The notes beneath the pieces were generated by a model that saw only the letters and a program-made list of their open reading frames with translations, made no database searches and was not told where the DNA came from. DNA of 64,000 bases, from assembly GCF_007971225.1 (NCBI RefSeq), contig NZ_CP042435.1, positions 1,426,001 to 1,490,000 of the forward strand, read 5' to 3'. Positions 37,660 to 49,397 of this stretch are shown here, in pieces; position 1 is the stretch's first letter; each line of letters opens with the position of its first letter. This DNA comes from Panacibacter ginsenosidivorans. Its GTDB lineage: Bacteria > Bacteroidota > Bacteroidia > Chitinophagales > Chitinophagaceae. The position numbers and the translations under genes are program-made.

Positions 37660-37752
37660 ATGAAACCCGCAATGTTACATATTGAATCAAAAAGGTGGTT
37701 TAATCCCAGCGTGGATTATATCATCGGCGGGGCATCAGATGCTGTAAGTTAG
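37660..37752 (+). CDS. Possible 30-residue small protein between promoter and terminator
   Basis: The ORF reads MKPAMLHIESKRWFNPSVDY then IIGGASDAVS and stops. It has an A-rich leader (AAAGCAAAG before ATG), a promoter candidate 32 bases upstream and an intrinsic terminator 32 bases downstream, so a dedicated short transcript is likely. No family recognised. The alternative is that the transcript is a non-coding RNA and the ORF is accidental. The amphipathic middle and glycine pair do not suggest a membrane toxin. Confidence 0.4.
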   Translation: MKPAMLHIESKRWFNPSVDYIIGGASDAVS

Positions 37753-37783
37753 CCAAAACTAAAACTAACTGACCATATGAAAG

Positions 37784-37806
37784 CCCCGCACCAAGCGGGG
37801 TTTTTT
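37784..37806 (+). terminator. Terminator of the small-ORF unit
   Basis: CCCCGC pairs with GCGGGG around ACCAA, followed by six T. Confidence 0.88.
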
Positions 37807-37836
37807 GTTGCAACCAGTTCAACAATACATCCCGGA

Positions 37837-37989
37837 ATGAAGATCAGAGAACAGATACAGGTCAACGCTATCAACACAAACACAGGAGCATGTCGCAATC
37901 ATGTTCTTACCTGCATCAGTTCTTTCGATTTGAATTTTCAAACAATCATATTTCTATATAAACGACCGTGGTCTGTAACACAGTGCTGA
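37837..37989 (+). CDS. Very tentative 50-residue ORF between two terminators
   Basis: It starts MKIREQIQVNAINTNTG and contains two Cys. It lies between the terminators ending at 37806 and 38046. No promoter or family was recognised, and the segment may be only a leader or small RNA. Confidence 0.2.
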   Translation: MKIREQIQVNAINTNTGACRNHVLTCISSFDLNFQTIIFLYKRPWSVTQC

Positions 37990-38011
37990 TAAGTATTTCA
38001 GTATAGATACG

Positions 38012-38046
38012 AACCCGGTCAGGATAAAGCCTTACCGGGTTTTTTA
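38012..38046 (+). terminator. Intrinsic terminator before the gene at 38072
   Basis: AACCCGGTCAGG pairs with CCTTACCGGGTT with one mismatch, followed by a T-run. It closes a second short transcript unit. Confidence 0.82.
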
Positions 38047-38071: not shown

Positions 38072-38626
38072 ATGACACTCTTTTCGCCGTTGCTGATCTT
38101 TATACTCGTACGCTTTATTTTCATCATTGTAAAAGCCATGGAGGATTCGGCCCGTACAAGGAATGGTTATTACAACCCTGCAAAACGGAGGTATAAGATG
38201 AATTTTAGATTCTGTAGAAAAATAAACAGTTTAAGCATGTTGTTCAATGGGCATTACATTGACGCAAAAGCATTGTATGTTTTGCAGACCGGAAAAGTTC
38301 CTTGCATCACCTTCGTTGGTGAGTTGGATATAGAAAAAGCATTCGGCTACATCAAAGAAACTTTTAAAGACGATGTTAAACAGGTTTATCATCACTCTTA
38401 TTTCGATCATGACAAGAATGAAAATTTTTTCAATTCAATCATACTCATAATGCCAAATCAGAGAATGATAGAGTTGGGAAACAATTATTGTCATCTTTTA
38501 TATCATGTTGACGATCATCAGTGGATGCGCAACATATGTGAAGTGTTTAAAGATTTCAGATTGCCAGGAAATGCAAATGCAACAACAAAGGTTGTTGGTT
38601 TCGCACGACAGGCAGAGATGAATTAA
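38072..38626 (+). CDS. Hypothetical protein with one N-terminal membrane helix
   Basis: The 184-residue ORF starts with a hydrophobic helix (LFSPLLIFILVRFIFIIVKAM) and a basic stretch (NPAKRRYKMNFRFCRK). A soluble domain of about 130 residues follows (ALYVLQTGKVPCITFVGELDIEKAFGY, IILIMPNQRMIELGNNYCHLLY, HQWMRNICEVFKDFRLPG). A shorter soluble form could start at the Met at 38198. I do not recognise the family. It is followed by a terminator and lies between GTAC copies 20 and 21. Confidence 0.6.
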   Translation: MTLFSPLLIFILVRFIFIIVKAMEDSARTRNGYYNPAKRRYKMNFRFCRKINSLSMLFNGHYIDAKALYVLQTGKVPCITFVGELDIEKAFGYIKETFKDDVKQVYHHSYFDHDKNENFFNSIILIMPNQRMIELGNNYCHLLYHVDDHQWMRNICEVFKDFRLPGNANATTKVVGFARQAEMN

Positions 38627-40576: not shown

Positions 40577-40613
40577 TGTTGGAGTAATTATTCGACAAAA
40601 AACAAAATAAAAA

Positions 40614-40774
40614 TGTTGCAATTACAAAACATATCATTTAATAAACAAAGAATTGATCGTACAGAATCACTACCCATTCTCACAGGCAAGAGGTATGCGC
40701 ATAATGATGGTTTTGAGTTTTCGATAGAACTGCATACACATAAACGACCAGGCAGGTATAAAGATCTTTGCTGA
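40614..40774 (+). CDS. Possible small protein (about 53 residues) upstream of the tRNA array
   Basis: ORF from the ATG at 40614 (MLQLQNISFNKQRIDRTESL) to the stop at 40774, ending in a basic stretch (HTHKRPGRYKDLC). It has an A-rich leader and is followed 21 bases later by an intrinsic terminator, so it may be a free-standing small gene. A role as leader of the tRNA transcript is possible. No family recognised. Confidence 0.4.
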
Positions 40775-40795
40775 TGAATCAGCGGAGGAGGTATA

Positions 40796-40827
40796 GCCCG
40801 GTCAAATAAAATTGATCGGGCTTTTTT
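40796..40827 (+). terminator. Strong hairpin with T-run ending three bases before tRNA-His
   Basis: GCCCGGTCAA pairs with TTGATCGGGC (one G-U) and is followed by six T. It directly abuts the first tRNA gene, so either the array has its own start inside this element or it depends on read-through. Confidence 0.88.
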
Positions 40828-40829
40828 AT

Positions 40830-40903
40830 GTTGGCTTTAGCTTAACCGGTAAAGTGCCACACTGTGAATGTGGAGAACAGGGTTCAAGTCCCGGAGTCAA
40901 CCA
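40830..40903 (+). tRNA. tRNA-His(GTG), slightly degenerate
   Basis: The anticodon arm CCACA-CTGTGAA-TGTGG gives GTG (His). The first base G can act as the His-specific G-1 opposite C. The D-arm (GCTT...AAGT, loop AACCGGTA) is canonical. The T-stem CAGGG/CCCGG has an A-G clash or a bulged A, and the 3' side is one base short of the ideal, so it may be weak or decaying. It is the first gene of an eight-tRNA array. Confidence 0.8.
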
Positions 40904-40913
40904 ATAAAAATAA

Positions 40914-41007
40914 TGCGGCTTGGTGTAAGGGTAACATGCTCGTCTTCCTTTCTTTCTGGAAGGTAAACATAAGATGAATGTTTTCAATTCAAGTCTGAAA
41001 GTCGCAC
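40914..41007 (+). tRNA. tRNA-Gly(TCC)-like gene with ~23-nt insertion next to the anticodon
   Basis: The acceptor stem TGCGGCT/AGTCGCA is perfect and the D-arm (GTGT...ACAT) is typical of tRNA-Gly(TCC), as is GCTCGTCTTCC leading into the anticodon. The 3' anticodon strand does not follow. Instead about 23 bases intervene (TTTCTTTCTGGAAGGTAAAC...), after which ATGA can pair with TCGT. The T-loop TTCAAGT is present, but the 53-61 pair is A-C. Within the insertion GGAAG can pair with the anticodon CTTCC. It is either a tRNA with an intron-like insertion or a pseudogene. Total length is about 94 bases without a long variable arm. Confidence 0.6.
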
Positions 41008-41013
41008 TGCGAC

Positions 41014-41084
41014 TGGCTTATAGTTCAATGGAAGAATGCTGCGCTTCGAACGCAGAGACGAGAGTTCGAACCTTTCTAAGCCAA
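41014..41084 (+). tRNA. tRNA-Arg(TCG)
   Basis: Acceptor TGGCTTA/TAAGCCA, D-arm GTTC/GAAT with GG in the loop, anticodon arm CTGCG-CTTCGAA-CGCAG, T-arm GAGAG-TTCGAAC-CTTTC and discriminator A. CCA is not encoded. The folding is complete. Confidence 0.9.
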
Positions 41085-41090
41085 CTGTAC

Positions 41091-41162
41091 AGATGAATAG
41101 TTTAATGGAAAAACATCCCGCTTCTAACGGGAAGACTGAAAGTTCGATTCTTTCTTCATCTA
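41091..41162 (+). tRNA. tRNA-Arg(TCT)
   Basis: Acceptor AGATGAA/TTCATCT, anticodon arm TCCCG-CTTCTAA-CGGGA, T-arm GAAAG-TTCGATT-CTTTC, discriminator A. All stems pair. It is very AT-rich. Confidence 0.92.
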
Positions 41163-41170
41163 CAAAAAAT

Positions 41171-41245
41171 GATGACTTAGCTCAATTGGTTGAGAGCATT
41201 ACGCTGATACCGTAAAGATTGATGGTTCGAGTCCATCAGTCATCA
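41171..41245 (+). tRNA. tRNA-Ile(GAT)
   Basis: Acceptor GATGACT/AGTCATC, D-arm GCTC...GAGA, anticodon arm TTACG-CTGATAC-CGTAA, T-arm GATGG-TTCGAGT-CCATC, discriminator A. It is outside any rRNA operon, where tRNA-Ile(GAT) is usually found. Confidence 0.92.
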
Positions 41246-41250
41246 CAAAA

Positions 41251-41325
41251 TAGTTCGTAGCTCAACTGGACAAGAGTATCCGGCTTTTACCCGAAGGGTT
41301 GTGCGTTCGAGTTGCACCGGACTAA
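41251..41325 (+). tRNA. tRNA-Lys(TTT)
   Basis: Acceptor TAGTTCG/CGGACTA, anticodon loop CTTTTAC giving TTT, T-arm GTGCG-TTCGAGT-TGCAC. The anticodon stem TCCGG/CCGAA has one C-A mismatch. Confidence 0.88.
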
Positions 41326-41405
41326 CAAAAAAATTGTTTAATGATTTGTTCAATTCGATAATGAGGAAAAAAGAAATCAGTCAGCACAGATTATAAAATA
41401 AAAAT

Positions 41406-41477
41406 GGATGAGTAGCTCAACGACAGAGTAATGCCCTGTTAAGGCAAAGGTTGAAAGTTCAAATCTTTCTTCATCCG
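41406..41477 (+). tRNA. tRNA-Asn(GTT)
   Basis: Acceptor GGATGAG/TTCATCC, anticodon loop CTGTTAA giving GTT, T-arm GAAAG-TTCAAAT-CTTTC and discriminator G as usual for Asn. The D-loop reads AACGACA, so the second conserved G is replaced, and the outermost anticodon-stem pair is A-A. Confidence 0.85.
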
Positions 41478-41480
41478 CAA

Positions 41481-41585: not shown

Positions 41586-41657
41586 GGACGAATAGCTCCA
41601 ATGGCAGAGCATCACGTTGAAGTCGTGACAGTGTTGGTTCGAACCCAACTTCGTCCA
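41586..41657 (+). tRNA. tRNA-Phe(GAA)
   Basis: Acceptor GGACGAA/TTCGTCC, anticodon arm TCACG-TTGAAGT-CGTGA giving GAA, T-arm GTTGG-TTCGAAC-CCAAC, discriminator A. The D-loop seems to carry one extra C (GCTCCAATGG). Confidence 0.9.
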
Positions 41658-41680
41658 CAGATAAATTAATAACAGGAAGA

Positions 41681-45886: not shown

Positions 45887-47350
45887 ATGGGAAAGTTAAA
45901 AATAACAGCCAAAGAATTGCGTGCAATCGGCTATCCCGAAAGCCCGGTGATTCCTGTGGCGATGAATGTGATGGAAAAAAATTATAAACATCACACAAAG
46001 GAGGAAGCGATGGAGATTTTAAAAGCAGTGCTTGCTGCGCCGGTGGAATATGCCAACGATGCAATGTTGGCGCTGATTGCAGAAAAATTACTGCCTAAAG
46101 CCCTCTCCTTTGGAGAGGGTTTGGGTGAGGTCTCTTTGAACAAAGAAGGCGTCCATTTCAACATATTTGGTGCAGATCATATTGAACAAGGTGCATTGCA
46201 TCAAATGTATGCAGCAGCAAAATTACCGGTAGCAGTTGCCGGTGCATTAATGCCCGATGCCCATCACGGTTATGGTTTGCCGATAGGCGGTGTACTGGCA
46301 ACAGAAAATGCGGTGATACCGTACGGCGTTGGTGTTGACATTGGCTGCCGTATGTGCCTGAGCATTTTTGATATCGATACAAAAGACCTTACGCAACGTG
46401 AAGCATTCTTTGTGCGTGAGCTCGGCGAAGCAACTTTGTTTGGCAGCGGTGCACAGTTTCAGCAATCGCCGGATCATGAAGTGATGGACAACAAATTATT
46501 TTTTGAAATGCCATTATTGAAAGGTTTGCATACACGTGCATGGAAACAGTTGGGATCATCAGGAAGTGGTAATCACTTTGCAGAGTTTGGCATTATTGAA
46601 ATTGATGAAACAGATGCTGTGTTGAATGTGCCTGCAGGAAAATATGTTGGCTTTGTAACGCATAGCGGTTCACGTGCATTGGGTGCAAACATTGCCAATC
46701 ATTACACACGACTGGCAATCAGCAAACGACGTTTGCCGCAGGAAGCAAAACATCTTGCATGGCTTACGATGGATGAAGCGGAAGGCATGGAATACTGGCT
46801 GGCTATGAATTTGGCGGGTGATTATGCAAGCGCTTGTCACCACGTGATACATGAAAAGATTGCAAAGCAGTTGGGTCGCAAGCCAATGAAGATGGTGGAG
46901 AACCATCACAACTTTGCATGGAAAGAAATCCATGATGGCAAGAAAGTAATCGTGCATCGCAAAGGTGCCACGCCTGCGGGTAAAGATGTGCTGGGTATTA
47001 TTCCCGGCAGTATGACGGCACCTGGCTTTATTGTAAAAGGCAAAGGTTCAGCGGCGAGCATCAACTCCGCATCGCATGGTGCCGGCAGAAAGATGAGTCG
47101 TACACAAGCCATGGCAAACATTACGCACAATGCATTGAAAGAAGAACTCGCCAAACACAATGTAAAATTGCTCGGCGGCGGTTTGGATGAAGCGCCTTTT
47201 GCATACAAGGATATTGAAGTCGTAATGCAATCGCAGAAAGCATTGGTTGATGTGGTGGGCAAGTTCACGCCAAAGATTGTAAAGATGTGTGGTGCGGAAA
47301 CCAATAGAACAAGAAAGGCGGGTAAGAGAGATGCGGTGGAAGGAGAATAA
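45887..47350 (+). CDS. rtcB: RtcB RNA ligase
   Basis: The 487-residue protein joins RNA 2',3'-cyclic phosphate or 3'-phosphate ends to 5'-OH ends with GTP and Mn2+. Seen motifs: ALMPDAHHGYGLPIGGVLA, GVDIGCRM with the metal-binding Cys near residue 155, GSSGSGNHFAEFG, FVTHSGSRALG, ENHHNFAW and SHGAGRKMSR with the catalytic His near 396. Residues about 72-83 (ALSFGEGLGEVS) are encoded by a dispersed palindromic repeat inserted in frame. In bacteria RtcB repairs cleaved tRNA or rRNA. KptA and a DUF4062-TPR gene follow; eight tRNA genes lie 4 kb upstream. Its start codon sits behind a strong palindrome. Confidence 0.95.
   Translation: MGKLKITAKELRAIGYPESPVIPVAMNVMEKNYKHHTKEEAMEILKAVLAAPVEYANDAMLALIAEKLLPKALSFGEGLGEVSLNKEGVHFNIFGADHIEQGALHQMYAAAKLPVAVAGALMPDAHHGYGLPIGGVLATENAVIPYGVGVDIGCRMCLSIFDIDTKDLTQREAFFVRELGEATLFGSGAQFQQSPDHEVMDNKLFFEMPLLKGLHTRAWKQLGSSGSGNHFAEFGIIEIDETDAVLNVPAGKYVGFVTHSGSRALGANIANHYTRLAISKRRLPQEAKHLAWLTMDEAEGMEYWLAMNLAGDYASACHHVIHEKIAKQLGRKPMKMVENHHNFAWKEIHDGKKVIVHRKGATPAGKDVLGIIPGSMTAPGFIVKGKGSAASINSASHGAGRKMSRTQAMANITHNALKEELAKHNVKLLGGGLDEAPFAYKDIEVVMQSQKALVDVVGKFTPKIVKMCGAETNRTRKAGKRDAVEGE
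46101..46135 (+). repeat. Palindromic repeat inserted in frame inside rtcB
   Basis: CCCTCTCCTTTGGAGAGGG (46101-46119) is a perfect 8-bp inverted repeat around TTT, followed by TTTGGGTGAGGTCTC. It adds about 12 residues (ALSFGEGLGEVS) between the N-terminal helix region and VHFNIFGADHIEQG without shifting the frame. Confidence 0.75.
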
Positions 47351-47510: not shown

Positions 47511-49397
47511 CTATATAGCTTGTTTTACAAGTCGAATATTTTTCTCCGCATTTTGAATATCCTGGTGATTTGAAGGCAAAAACTTTTTAAAAATCTCAAG
47601 ACTTTTCTGGTAACAATCAATGGCTTTATTATAAATATCTTTATTATAATAAGCAACACCTAGGTTATTATAATCAATCGCGATGTCTGGGTGGTCATCT
47701 CCATAATATTCAGTATCTATTTCCAAAGCTTTTTTATGATACTCGATTGCTTTATCATAATCTCCTTTGTTACTATATGCCAAGCCAAGATTATTATAAC
47801 GGGTTGCAATTTTTTGATGCATTTCGCCATGATATTTTCGATCGATCTTTAAAGCCTTTTTATGATACTCGATTGCCTTATCATAATCTCCAATACTGTT
47901 GTACGCCGATCCAAGGTTATTATAATCAATGGCAATTTCCGGAGAATCATCGTCATAAAATTTCAAATTTATTTCTAAAGCCTTTTTATGATACTCGATT
48001 GATTTTTTATACGCCCCAATGTTATGATAAGCTGAACCTATATTATTATAATCTGTAGCAATATCTGTTGATTCTTCACCATAAAGTTTTAAATTAATTT
48101 TCGAGGATTTCTCATAATATTGAATAGCCCTTTCATATTCTCCCTTACCATTAAAAGCTAACCCAAGATTATTATACCCATTAGCTATTTCCTCTGAATT
48201 TTCGTCATAGTTAGCCTGATTGATTTTTAAAGCCTTTTCATGATATTGAATTGCTTTCTTATACTCGGCTTTACAGTAGTAAGCAAGACCTATATTACTA
48301 TAATAAATTGCAACATCAGGATGCTTGTCGTCATGATACTCAAGTGCAATATCCAAAGCCTTCTTATAATATTTAATAGCCTTTTCGAATAGCCCTAAAT
48401 CGTATGCAATAATTCCTGCCTCATTTTGGTAATCGCTATTATCAGGGTTTACCTTTATAGATAACTCGTAATAATCCAACGCTTCTGTATATTGCAATTG
48501 AAGCTTCTTAATTTTTGCTAGTTCATAAAATGTAGAAGCAGTGTCATTAATTCTTTCTTTAGCACTTTGTTTTAAATAACTTTCTGCTTCTTCATAGTTT
48601 CCTCTTTCAACCTCTTCAAGCGCTTTAGCTTTTAGCTTATCATTTACTTTTTGAGATCCTAATTGCAATTCTAATTTTTGTTTATACTGTGCCAATTGAT
48701 TTATTATTTCCTGGCTTTGATACAATTCAGTTCTTATACTTTCTTTTTCTTGTGTTAATTTCTCTATTTGTAATTGTATTTGCCGGTCATTAGACTTGTT
48801 GTTTCCAGCTCTCAACTCTTTTATTTCATTATCTTTTTCTCCAAGCATTCTTATTAATTCAAGATTCGACTGTGAAAGCGTACTTACAGTTTCGTCAGTT
48901 CTTTTTACATAAGTTATATGATAGGCTTCAGAGAAAAAAAGATTCAGGTTATCTGATATTAATAATTCAAAATCTATAAGATTTTTATATTCTTTATAAA
49001 GTACAGTATCTGTTAAGCTTTCTTTGAATTCTAAAACTTCGCTAAAAGATTGCAACGTTTCCCGTTTTGGTGTAAAGCCATCCTTAAAATATGCAAATAT
49101 TTTTTTATTCAGATTCGTAGCGATTTCGAACTCCTCTCTTGTATACTTTCCAATCCGAGAATAAAATAAAAAGATTACCAATTGACATTCTTCTAGTGTT
49201 TTATTTATACCAGCTTGAATATTTTCGTATCCAGGAAAATTACCTTGAACTATATCATACTCCCATTCAACAGGCTCAAGGTCGAGATGCTTATGATTTT
49301 TTCGGATTTTATTAATAATCAAAATACATTTCTCTCTTTCTTCTTTTAATTCAGCTGAAGAAGCAATAAATATCTTTATGTTGGTTTTTTGAGACAC
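47511..49397 (-). CDS. DUF4062 - coiled coil - TPR protein (candidate defence or signalling sensor)
   Basis: The 628-residue cytoplasmic protein has an N-terminal DUF4062 domain (about 5-130: IKIFIASSAELKEEREKC, ILIINKIRKNH, LVIFLFYSRIG, TREEFEIA), which has a TIR/SEFIR-like fold by family knowledge. A charged coiled coil follows (about 170-265, Gln/Glu/Lys-rich). Residues about 330-628 contain seven 42-residue TPR units of kinesin-light-chain type (AIEYHKKALEI...DYNNLGSAYNSIGDYDK), very similar to each other. DUF4062-TPR proteins resemble NLR-like sensors in bacterial conflict systems. It is divergent from kptA with only 47 bases between, so the two may share control. Its DNA looks AT-richer than its neighbours. 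Confidence 0.85.
   Translation of the reverse strand: MSQKTNIKIFIASSAELKEEREKCILIINKIRKNHKHLDLEPVEWEYDIVQGNFPGYENIQAGINKTLEECQLVIFLFYSRIGKYTREEFEIATNLNKKIFAYFKDGFTPKRETLQSFSEVLEFKESLTDTVLYKEYKNLIDFELLISDNLNLFFSEAYHITYVKRTDETVSTLSQSNLELIRMLGEKDNEIKELRAGNNKSNDRQIQLQIEKLTQEKESIRTELYQSQEIINQLAQYKQKLELQLGSQKVNDKLKAKALEEVERGNYEEAESYLKQSAKERINDTASTFYELAKIKKLQLQYTEALDYYELSIKVNPDNSDYQNEAGIIAYDLGLFEKAIKYYKKALDIALEYHDDKHPDVAIYYSNIGLAYYCKAEYKKAIQYHEKALKINQANYDENSEEIANGYNNLGLAFNGKGEYERAIQYYEKSSKINLKLYGEESTDIATDYNNIGSAYHNIGAYKKSIEYHKKALEINLKFYDDDSPEIAIDYNNLGSAYNSIGDYDKAIEYHKKALKIDRKYHGEMHQKIATRYNNLGLAYSNKGDYDKAIEYHKKALEIDTEYYGDDHPDIAIDYNNLGVAYYNKDIYNKAIDCYQKSLEIFKKFLPSNHQDIQNAEKNIRLVKQAI

Follow-up and report, generated by a model that had tools for sequence, protein, structure and literature searches.

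Element X, a 94-nt tRNA-like RNA gene at positions 40914–41007 of the window (the whole 64,000-nt stretch of DNA analysed), is almost certainly a conserved, folded RNA and not a tRNA-Gly. It is a tRNA-derived RNA in which the anticodon loop is replaced by a longer arm, comprising a 6–7-bp stem, a 3′ bulge and a second hairpin with a UUUCU loop. X sits in a tRNA array behind a leader that resembles a ribosome-read attenuator. Our best reading is that these elements form a back-up operon that would answer tRNA shortage, like the trn/RtcB/slipin regulon of Anabaena but under attenuator control. The conservation, fold and array position of X, together with the leader ORF and its geometry, are evident in the sequences themselves. 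The complete proposal, an attenuated back-up operon carrying X as an unspliced, non-decoding tRNA mimic and perhaps a decoy, is put forward tentatively, with slightly less than an even chance of holding as a whole. All coordinates are window positions on the forward strand.

A covariance model places X exactly at 40914–41007 (contig 1466914–1467007), which confirms the extent given by an earlier sequence-only reading that had described a tRNA-Gly(UCC) gene with an intron-like insertion beside the anticodon. ARAGORN and Rfam, run over the window, both skip the element and identify the genes on either side of it, tRNA-His(GUG) (40830–40902) and tRNA-Arg(UCG) (41014–41085). The perfect acceptor stem, the D arm and the T loop recognised earlier are present: the acceptor stem has 7 bp (TGCGGCT/AGTCGCA, U1–A72) with U8 and a C at position 73, the D arm has the stem GTGT/ACAT and GG in its loop, and the T arm has a 5-bp stem with one mismatch (A53–C61) and TTC in its loop. 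The mismatch is specific to the window, and 21 of the 22 distinct aligned X have G–C there. The anticodon stem is TCGTC/GATGA, and between its strands lie TT, the hairpin CCTTTC-TTTCT-GGAAGG and then TAAACATAA. TCGTCTT does pair with AAGATGA, as had been proposed, to form an extended anticodon stem (5′ strand, positions 27–33, 40940–40946; 3′ strand, 40971–40977) supported by covariation. The proposed pairing of CTTCC with GGAAG is better read as a 6-bp hairpin (40947–40963) with the apical loop UUUCU, which is obtained in a single-sequence fold of the window's X and is backed by compensatory changes. A conserved 3′ bulge, UAAACAU (40964–40970; consensus in the alignment about UAARYAK), follows. 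Folded alone, the window's X RNA forms the acceptor stem and the long anticodon arm, and normal D and T arms do not form. At its 3′ end the insert reads CAT-AA-GATGA, which is an anticodon of the methionine type; the anticodon TCC of the sequence-only reading was therefore a misreading.

The same insertion recurs in relatives. The sister genome G001, of the same genus, has X at the same place, 81% identical. A 181-base query matched 55/394 family genomes, many through tRNA-His alone, and a covariance model derived from 23 sequences detected X in 27 of the 394 (13 genera, 78–109 bits) under strict filters that may lose weak matches. X scores at least 78 bits; the next match, an intact array tRNA, reaches 55.6 bits, and no others exceed 56. 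A pattern scan of a named genome collection returned 30 records with X, all under Bacteroidota names: 26 are Chitinophagaceae or its genera (Niabella, Ferruginibacter, Terrimonas, Lacibacter, Foetidibacter), and four bear broader names only. The exact pattern had no match in viral contigs.

Across the 22 distinct aligned X, 96.4% of 637 cells are paired, compared with 88.9% in shuffles. None of 500 shuffles reaches this paired fraction or the count of two-sided pair changes, and these counts are not probabilities because related sequences are not independent. Sliding the partner strands lowers pairing to 37–48%. Both sides have changed in 16 of the 29 base pairs, inserted hairpin included (anticodon stem and extension 6/7, inserted hairpin 4/6, acceptor 4/7, T stem 2/5, D stem 0/4). 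The inserted hairpin is 97.7% paired, its apical loop is UUUCU in 19/22 sequences (the others have UUCCU or UUAAU, and one has no loop), and the one-sided 7–8-nt bulge and 6-bp hairpin with a 5-nt loop occur in 22/23 aligned X. Length is 94–95 nt in 21/22 distinct rows. Positions 32 and 38 pair in all 22 (TA 15, CG 7), positions 33 and 37 are UA in 10 and CC in 12, and position 73 is C in 21. A wider set of 37 distinct X was selected by a pattern in which part of the hairpin is preset (purines on the 3′ strand, TT..T in the loop), and figures for the loop and hairpin therefore come from the 22-sequence alignment; positions 32, 33, 37, 38 and 73 and the anticodon stem were left free. In the wider set, 32–38 is paired in 37/37 (TA 26, CG 10, TG 1), 33–37 is UA in 16, CC in 19 and other in 2, and all but one have C at position 73 (36/37), that one being L072, with a repeat in the T arm. 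These 37 X have 24 distinct anticodon stems, with a mean of 4.8 of 5 pairs kept. The structured anticodon-loop insertion first recognised in the window is conserved, as judged by covariation in 22 distinct sequences, and is neither chance nor decay.

The window array consists of seven ordinary tRNAs and X, and ends at 41658. It begins with tRNA-His(GUG), and tRNA-Arg(UCG) is followed by tRNA-Arg(UCU) (41091–41163), tRNA-Ile(GAU) (41171–41246), tRNA-Lys(UUU) (41251–41326), tRNA-Asn(GUU) (41406–41478) and tRNA-Phe(GAA) (41586–41658), all identified by ARAGORN and Rfam. X adjoins other tRNAs in 30/30 named loci and directly follows tRNA-His in 26, a count that includes L066, in which ARAGORN mistook X itself for an Arg tRNA; X has a different neighbour in L079, L081 and L083, and the L084 sequence begins at X. 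The order across loci is approximately Pro-Ala-Glu-Asp-Gln-His-X-Arg-Leu-Met-Ile-Val-Lys-Asn-Tyr-Ser-Cys-Phe-Trp, with many losses and changes, and an ordinary Gly(UCC) is present in some arrays. X was not found in 367/394 genomes and arrays without X exist, so the operon does not need it.

With 150 of 301 candidates scored, at least 38 tRNA genes, serving 19 amino acids and including Gly(UCC), lie outside the array in the window's genome. Five of the seven array tRNAs (His, Arg(UCU), Lys, Asn and Phe) have a second gene with the same anticodon, and other Arg genes exist elsewhere in the genome beside the array Arg(UCG). The array reads as a spare tRNA set, with duplication claimed for these five and not for every member. 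Among the same 150 of 301 candidates, neither a tRNA-Ile nor a tRNA-Ala(UGC) was seen outside the array; genes for both are usual in rRNA operons. Because no Ile gene was seen there, the array may be only partly spare, and the array Ile(GAU) would be the genome's only one if the absence is real.

Several features of the arrays stand apart. Among the 30 named loci, array tRNA-Glu frequently has U37 (CT-TTC-TA in 4/9) and array tRNA-Asp has U37 in 8/13 (TT-GTC-TA or TG), while A stands there in the housekeeping copies that the window's genome carries. A palindromic repeat of ~20 nt (CCTGCCTGCCGGCAGGCAGG type) lies between positions 53 and 54, at the T-loop start, in a number of array tRNAs (Gln, Lys, Asn, Cys and Arg), and one X (L072) carries it too; sites include L052 1395–1489, 1736–1828 and 1916–2008, and further ones in L070, L080 and L148. 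It looks like a mobile repeat entering tRNA T arms. In sister genome G001 (L033), ARAGORN finds His and Phe only; X lies between them, as does a degraded Arg-like stretch. As only these two tRNAs remain around X and the leader ORF is truncated, X appears to have outlived most of its tRNA neighbours there. A phage origin was rejected: seven phage records match only single array tRNAs, over at most 7% of the query.

The array is preceded by a leader with the layout of an attenuator. A 53-codon leader ORF (40613–40774) contains 18 of the 20 amino acids and ends ...HKRPGRYKDLC, and a terminator (40795–40827), made of region 3 (40796–40803), region 4 (40814–40821) and a T run, stands just before tRNA-His. 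The antiterminator strand, region 2 (CGACCAGGC, 40745–40753), lies inside the ORF as Arg-Pro codons (CGA CCG) and could base-pair with region 3, the terminator's 5′ arm; across the leaders, region 2 starts 18–30 nt before the ORF stop. In the window, the antiterminator folds with −24.6 kcal/mol (z −4.1) and the terminator with −17.7 kcal/mol (z −5.2). In the aligned leaders, the terminator is paired in 98.6% of cells and region 2:3 in 94.2%. Covariation at region 2:3 is weak (one pair changed on both sides) and adds little because region 2 is nearly invariant.

This arrangement recurs ahead of the array in 23 distinct loci recovered by a weak profile search (E up to 0.01); 22 of them contain X, and L054 does not. 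In these loci, the frame upstream of region 2 is open for 22–82 codons, with a median of 49 compared with 7 in the other two frames. Using a covariance model built partly from the same X genomes, a leader match at E ≤ 1e-4 falls within 1.5 kb upstream of X in 23/27 of them, and G281, G308, G357 and G378 give no match at this threshold and distance. A promoter scan returned fewer sites than shuffles give. The sequence displays two features of an attenuator, a short conserved leader ORF and a terminator with a mutually exclusive antiterminator, and an attenuated back-up operon is probable on this evidence. Our confidence is lowered because no Ile(GAU) was seen outside the array with 150 of 301 candidates scored.

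The composition of the leader peptide is unusual. All 20 amino acids occur in 11 of 23 leader peptides, compared with 0.47 expected from base-shuffled frames, and the mean number of amino-acid kinds is 18.96, compared with 17.1 (0/5000 shuffled means as high), counted over the last 50 codons or fewer and among related genera that are not independent. Relative to the real proteins of the same loci, the leaders are enriched in Cys (3.9-fold), His (2.3-fold) and Met (2-fold) and depleted in Ala, Val, Gly and Glu. Incomplete leaders include that of the window (no Val or Trp), that of L056 (16 kinds) and the truncated leader of sister genome G001. In trp- and his-type attenuators, a stall in the leader ORF decides between antiterminator and terminator, and the regulatory codons are those of the amino acid concerned; the leaders here differ in holding up to all 20 amino acids and in having region 2 inside the ORF. 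We consider it an even call whether the leader peptide evolved as a roll-call of every amino acid, such that loss of any charged tRNA would stall the ribosome and release spare tRNAs, the nuclease-soaking mimic X and RNA-repair enzymes. If so, RNA and a ribosome alone would make up a general sensor of tRNA sufficiency.

Genes for RNA-related proteins accompany the array. A YkuK-type RNase H-like protein (Pfam PF04308, 41765–42262) follows it in the window and lies downstream of the array in 20/30 named loci; eight of the ten negative loci have little sequence after the array, and L068 and L071 are negative although more than 5 kb follows. An RtcB RNA ligase (Pfam PF01139) is encoded at 45887–47350, and this proximity, already pointed out in the window, recurs: in 17/27 X genomes, RtcB lies downstream on the contig and strand of X, no more than about 12 kb away; it is elsewhere in seven (G231, G238, G276, G308, G357, G358, G378), and its linkage is undecided in three fragmented ones (G141, G166, G207). 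RtcB is present in 27/27 X genomes, compared with 20/27 hand-chosen genomes without X. KptA, once suggested as a splicing partner, occurs in 12/27 genomes with X and 12/27 without, and its presence near X is incidental. PADLOC has no family for YkuK, RtcB, KptA, ORF 38072 or slipin; its matches are TPR for 47511–49397 and weak AAA matches, and nothing else.

We propose that the back-up tRNA operon would normally be held off by the transcription terminator. The leader ORF, about 50 codons long and containing nearly every amino acid, would be translated first. A ribosome that runs through the leader would cover region 2 and let the terminator form, and a ribosome that stalls for lack of a charged tRNA would leave region 2 to pair with region 3, so that the operon is read through. 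Read-through would yield the spare tRNAs, X, YkuK and often RtcB. X would be kept unspliced, would not decode and would most likely serve as bait or mimic for anticodon-loop enzymes, either nucleases or the operon's own repair proteins. We infer here the expression of the operon, the action of the switch, the presence of YkuK and RtcB on a shared transcript, and the binding partners of X.

As for the identity of X, tRNA-Gly(UCC) was rejected: the aligned anticodon region is mostly CAU or UAG, the body is on average nearest the array tRNA-Met(CAU) (0.72 over 13 loci; next Asp, 0.68), and an intact tRNA-Gly(UCC) exists elsewhere in the genome. By locus, tRNA-Met is nearest in 9 of the 29 loci compared (one of the 30 was skipped) and other tRNAs, chiefly Asp and Gln, in 20. 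The sequence-only reading had coupled the finding of such an intact gene with decay of the locus in relatives; general decay is not seen, and X is worn or shortened only in the single lineages G308 and G357. These lineages, the A53–C61 mismatch and the sister genome in which ARAGORN finds only two tRNAs around X would fit a decaying duplicate tRNA with an old insertion, the pseudogene that had been suspected from the weak T stem. We regard that explanation as very improbable: X is found in 27 genomes of 13 genera, its length is nearly constant (94–95 in 21/22 rows), and the varied anticodon stems (24 distinct, 4.8 of 5 pairs kept) and the two-sided changes in a hairpin that stays 97.7% paired already contradict it. 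A more serious alternative is an intron-containing precursor, in which an enzyme would cut out ~21 nt between U33 and C34 and RtcB would join the halves; removal of 40947–40967 would give the window's X the anticodon loop UUCAUAA of a Met or Ile tRNA. The insert ends in CAU-AA in 13/37 distinct X, which would leave a perfect Met-type loop (UU-CAU-AA), U33 and A37 are both kept in 16/37 (13 with CAU; 10/22 aligned), the body is nearest tRNA-Met on average, and RtcB is in every X genome and linked in 17. Splicing is nonetheless quite unlikely. C33 occurs in 20/37 distinct X (12/22 aligned), and 18 of these 20 have UAG-C in place of CAU-A (18 of the 24 X without CAU-AA), and therefore no single splice rule yields a sound anticodon loop. 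Position 73 is C in 36/37 X compared with A in the array tRNA-Met of L045 and L055, and RtcB also occurs in 20/27 genomes without X. The window's genome has no match to the tRNA-splicing endonuclease PF01974 at E ≤ 1, in a search that was positive in 5/14 controls. A bulge–helix–bulge (BHB) motif has two 3-nt bulges around a 4-bp helix, and X has instead a single 7–8-nt bulge on one side and a 6-bp hairpin with a 5-nt loop. The archaeal or eukaryotic type of intron, as first suspected, shares with X a structured insertion in the anticodon loop (PMC4090602), but position, geometry and enzyme do not fit. A group I intron was also rejected, the insert being about 21–23 nt with no Rfam group I match at E ≤ 1. 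As no endonuclease was found, no BHB is formed and C33 occurs in 20/37, we hold that the functional form of X is likely the unspliced one.

Among roles for X, we rank a decoy first, with modest confidence, a protein-binding RNA second and a spliced tRNA third. A decoy for anticodon-cutting enzymes is a tentative assignment, consistent with retention of the bases of the tRNA elbow and with the 32–38 pair kept in all 22 aligned X; the arm also seems too long to fit the ribosomal A site. In an alternative reading, the hairpin is a 5-bp stem closed by the 7-base loop CUUUCUG, equal in size to an anticodon stem-loop and sharing CUUUC with tRNA-Glu. Of 38 tRNAs in the window's genome, the one whose stem-loop comes nearest to it is tRNA-Glu(UUC) (11.9 of 17 positions on average). 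The hairpin stems do not change in step with the tRNA-Glu stems of their genomes, which weakens the decoy idea in its Glu-mimic form and leaves Glu-anticodon mimicry by the stem unsupported. Mimicry of the anti-Shine–Dalgarno sequence by the pyrimidine-rich strand of the hairpin was dropped, as CCUCC is not kept. Alternatively, X might have a structural or regulatory role through binding to one of the regulon's proteins (YkuK, the AAA protein, RtcB or other), with a tRNA-like body and a protein-binding stem as in Y RNA. Sequence conservation of the bulge and apical loop beyond the need of tRNA folding, and the recurrent company of YkuK and RtcB, speak for such a role; we still find it doubtful, since arrays with YkuK and RtcB occur where no X was found (for example, G126 and G149) and the genome has no Ro60 (TROVE) gene over cut-off. 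A bacterial Y RNA in the strict sense was rejected on the same search, whose two sub-threshold matches have E 0.11 and 0.21. X is a conserved tRNA with its anticodon loop turned into a longer arm, and is a ready probe for whatever attacks or handles anticodon loops in these bacteria.

The arrangement resembles the Anabaena trn/TrcR system, in which a second tRNA array beside the housekeeping set shares a regulon with RtcB, slipin and an AAA ATPase (PMC10272220); in gene content the two systems are closely parallel. There, translation-targeting antibiotics switch on an otherwise silent operon of 26 tRNAs, and RtcB, slipin and the AAA ATPase also rise in a mutant of the TrcR repressor (PMC10272220). 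The Anabaena operon is normally silent and stress-induced, as the back-up operon here would be; the former is controlled by the DNA-binding repressor TrcR, whereas the leader here points to a ribosome-read attenuator; and the available part of that account mentions no X-like element (PMC10272220). Mycobacterial tRNA array units likewise cluster spare tRNAs and are thought to be anti-defence, but are described in genomes, phages and plasmids, whereas the present array is a chromosomal operon with conserved neighbours and a leader (PMC12803027). Phage tRNAs that evade anticodon nucleases replace cut tRNAs and have altered anticodon loops (PMC10264068, PMC11555353); the spare set here is a bacterial operon, and its loop changes (U37 in array tRNA-Glu) are suggestive only. 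In the Salmonella RNA repair operon, RtcB expression is coupled to tRNA damage, a likeness to the present case, but through the protein activator RtcR (PMC7790460). The top-ranked results of an open-licence literature search included no account of X, of comparable arrays in Chitinophagaceae or of a tRNA array preceded by an attenuator. In the literature covered, the cyanobacterial operon is the sole spare bacterial tRNA array with an experimental link to stress. In the present case, many members of a single family carry an array, RNA-repair genes and a leader, and the hypothesis is directly testable because the composition of the leader peptide states in sequence what would be sensed.

The leader type extends beyond the arrays. 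Its covariance model matches 63/394 family genomes at E ≤ 1e-6 (hand count) and 96 at 1e-4, and family counts use the stricter threshold because matches near 1e-4 are unreliable. In a class-wide sample of 395 genomes, some of the family included, the window's genome alone passes 1e-6; at ~1e-4, matches appear in 15 genomes outside the family. We inspected 20 further sites and the window's second leader, a hand-chosen and not random set mostly away from arrays. The leader precedes YkuK, with or without a few tRNAs, in L160, L163, L168, L169, L170, L172 and L174. It stands before an AAA ATPase and then RtcB in L164, before tRNAs, AAA and RtcB in L171, before a 105-aa RtcB remnant in L173, and before AAA proteins behind another gene in L159, L161 and L167. 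Further sites precede Band_7/slipin followed by tRNAs and YkuK (L175), MATE and an array (L165), two tRNAs (L162) and genes without evident relation (L156, L158, L166), and the match of L157 seems to be a false one. Pfam confirms AAA in L159, L164 and L167 and Band_7 in L175. The common leader type suggests that the RtcB, slipin and AAA genes may be under shared control.

The second leader of the same type in the window (37837–38045) has a 50-codon ORF with Lys-Arg-Pro, followed by a terminator, and precedes an ORF at 38072–38626. This ORF has no Pfam match, and its relatives make up the N-terminal portion of an AAA ATPase encoded close to leaders of this kind (L159, L161, L164, L167). Two attenuator-like leaders stand in tandem before it (37660–38045). 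The first has a 30-codon ORF (37660–37752) and then a GCCCCGC terminator to about 37806, and a weak Rfam Trp_leader match (E 0.38) lies at 37719–37808.
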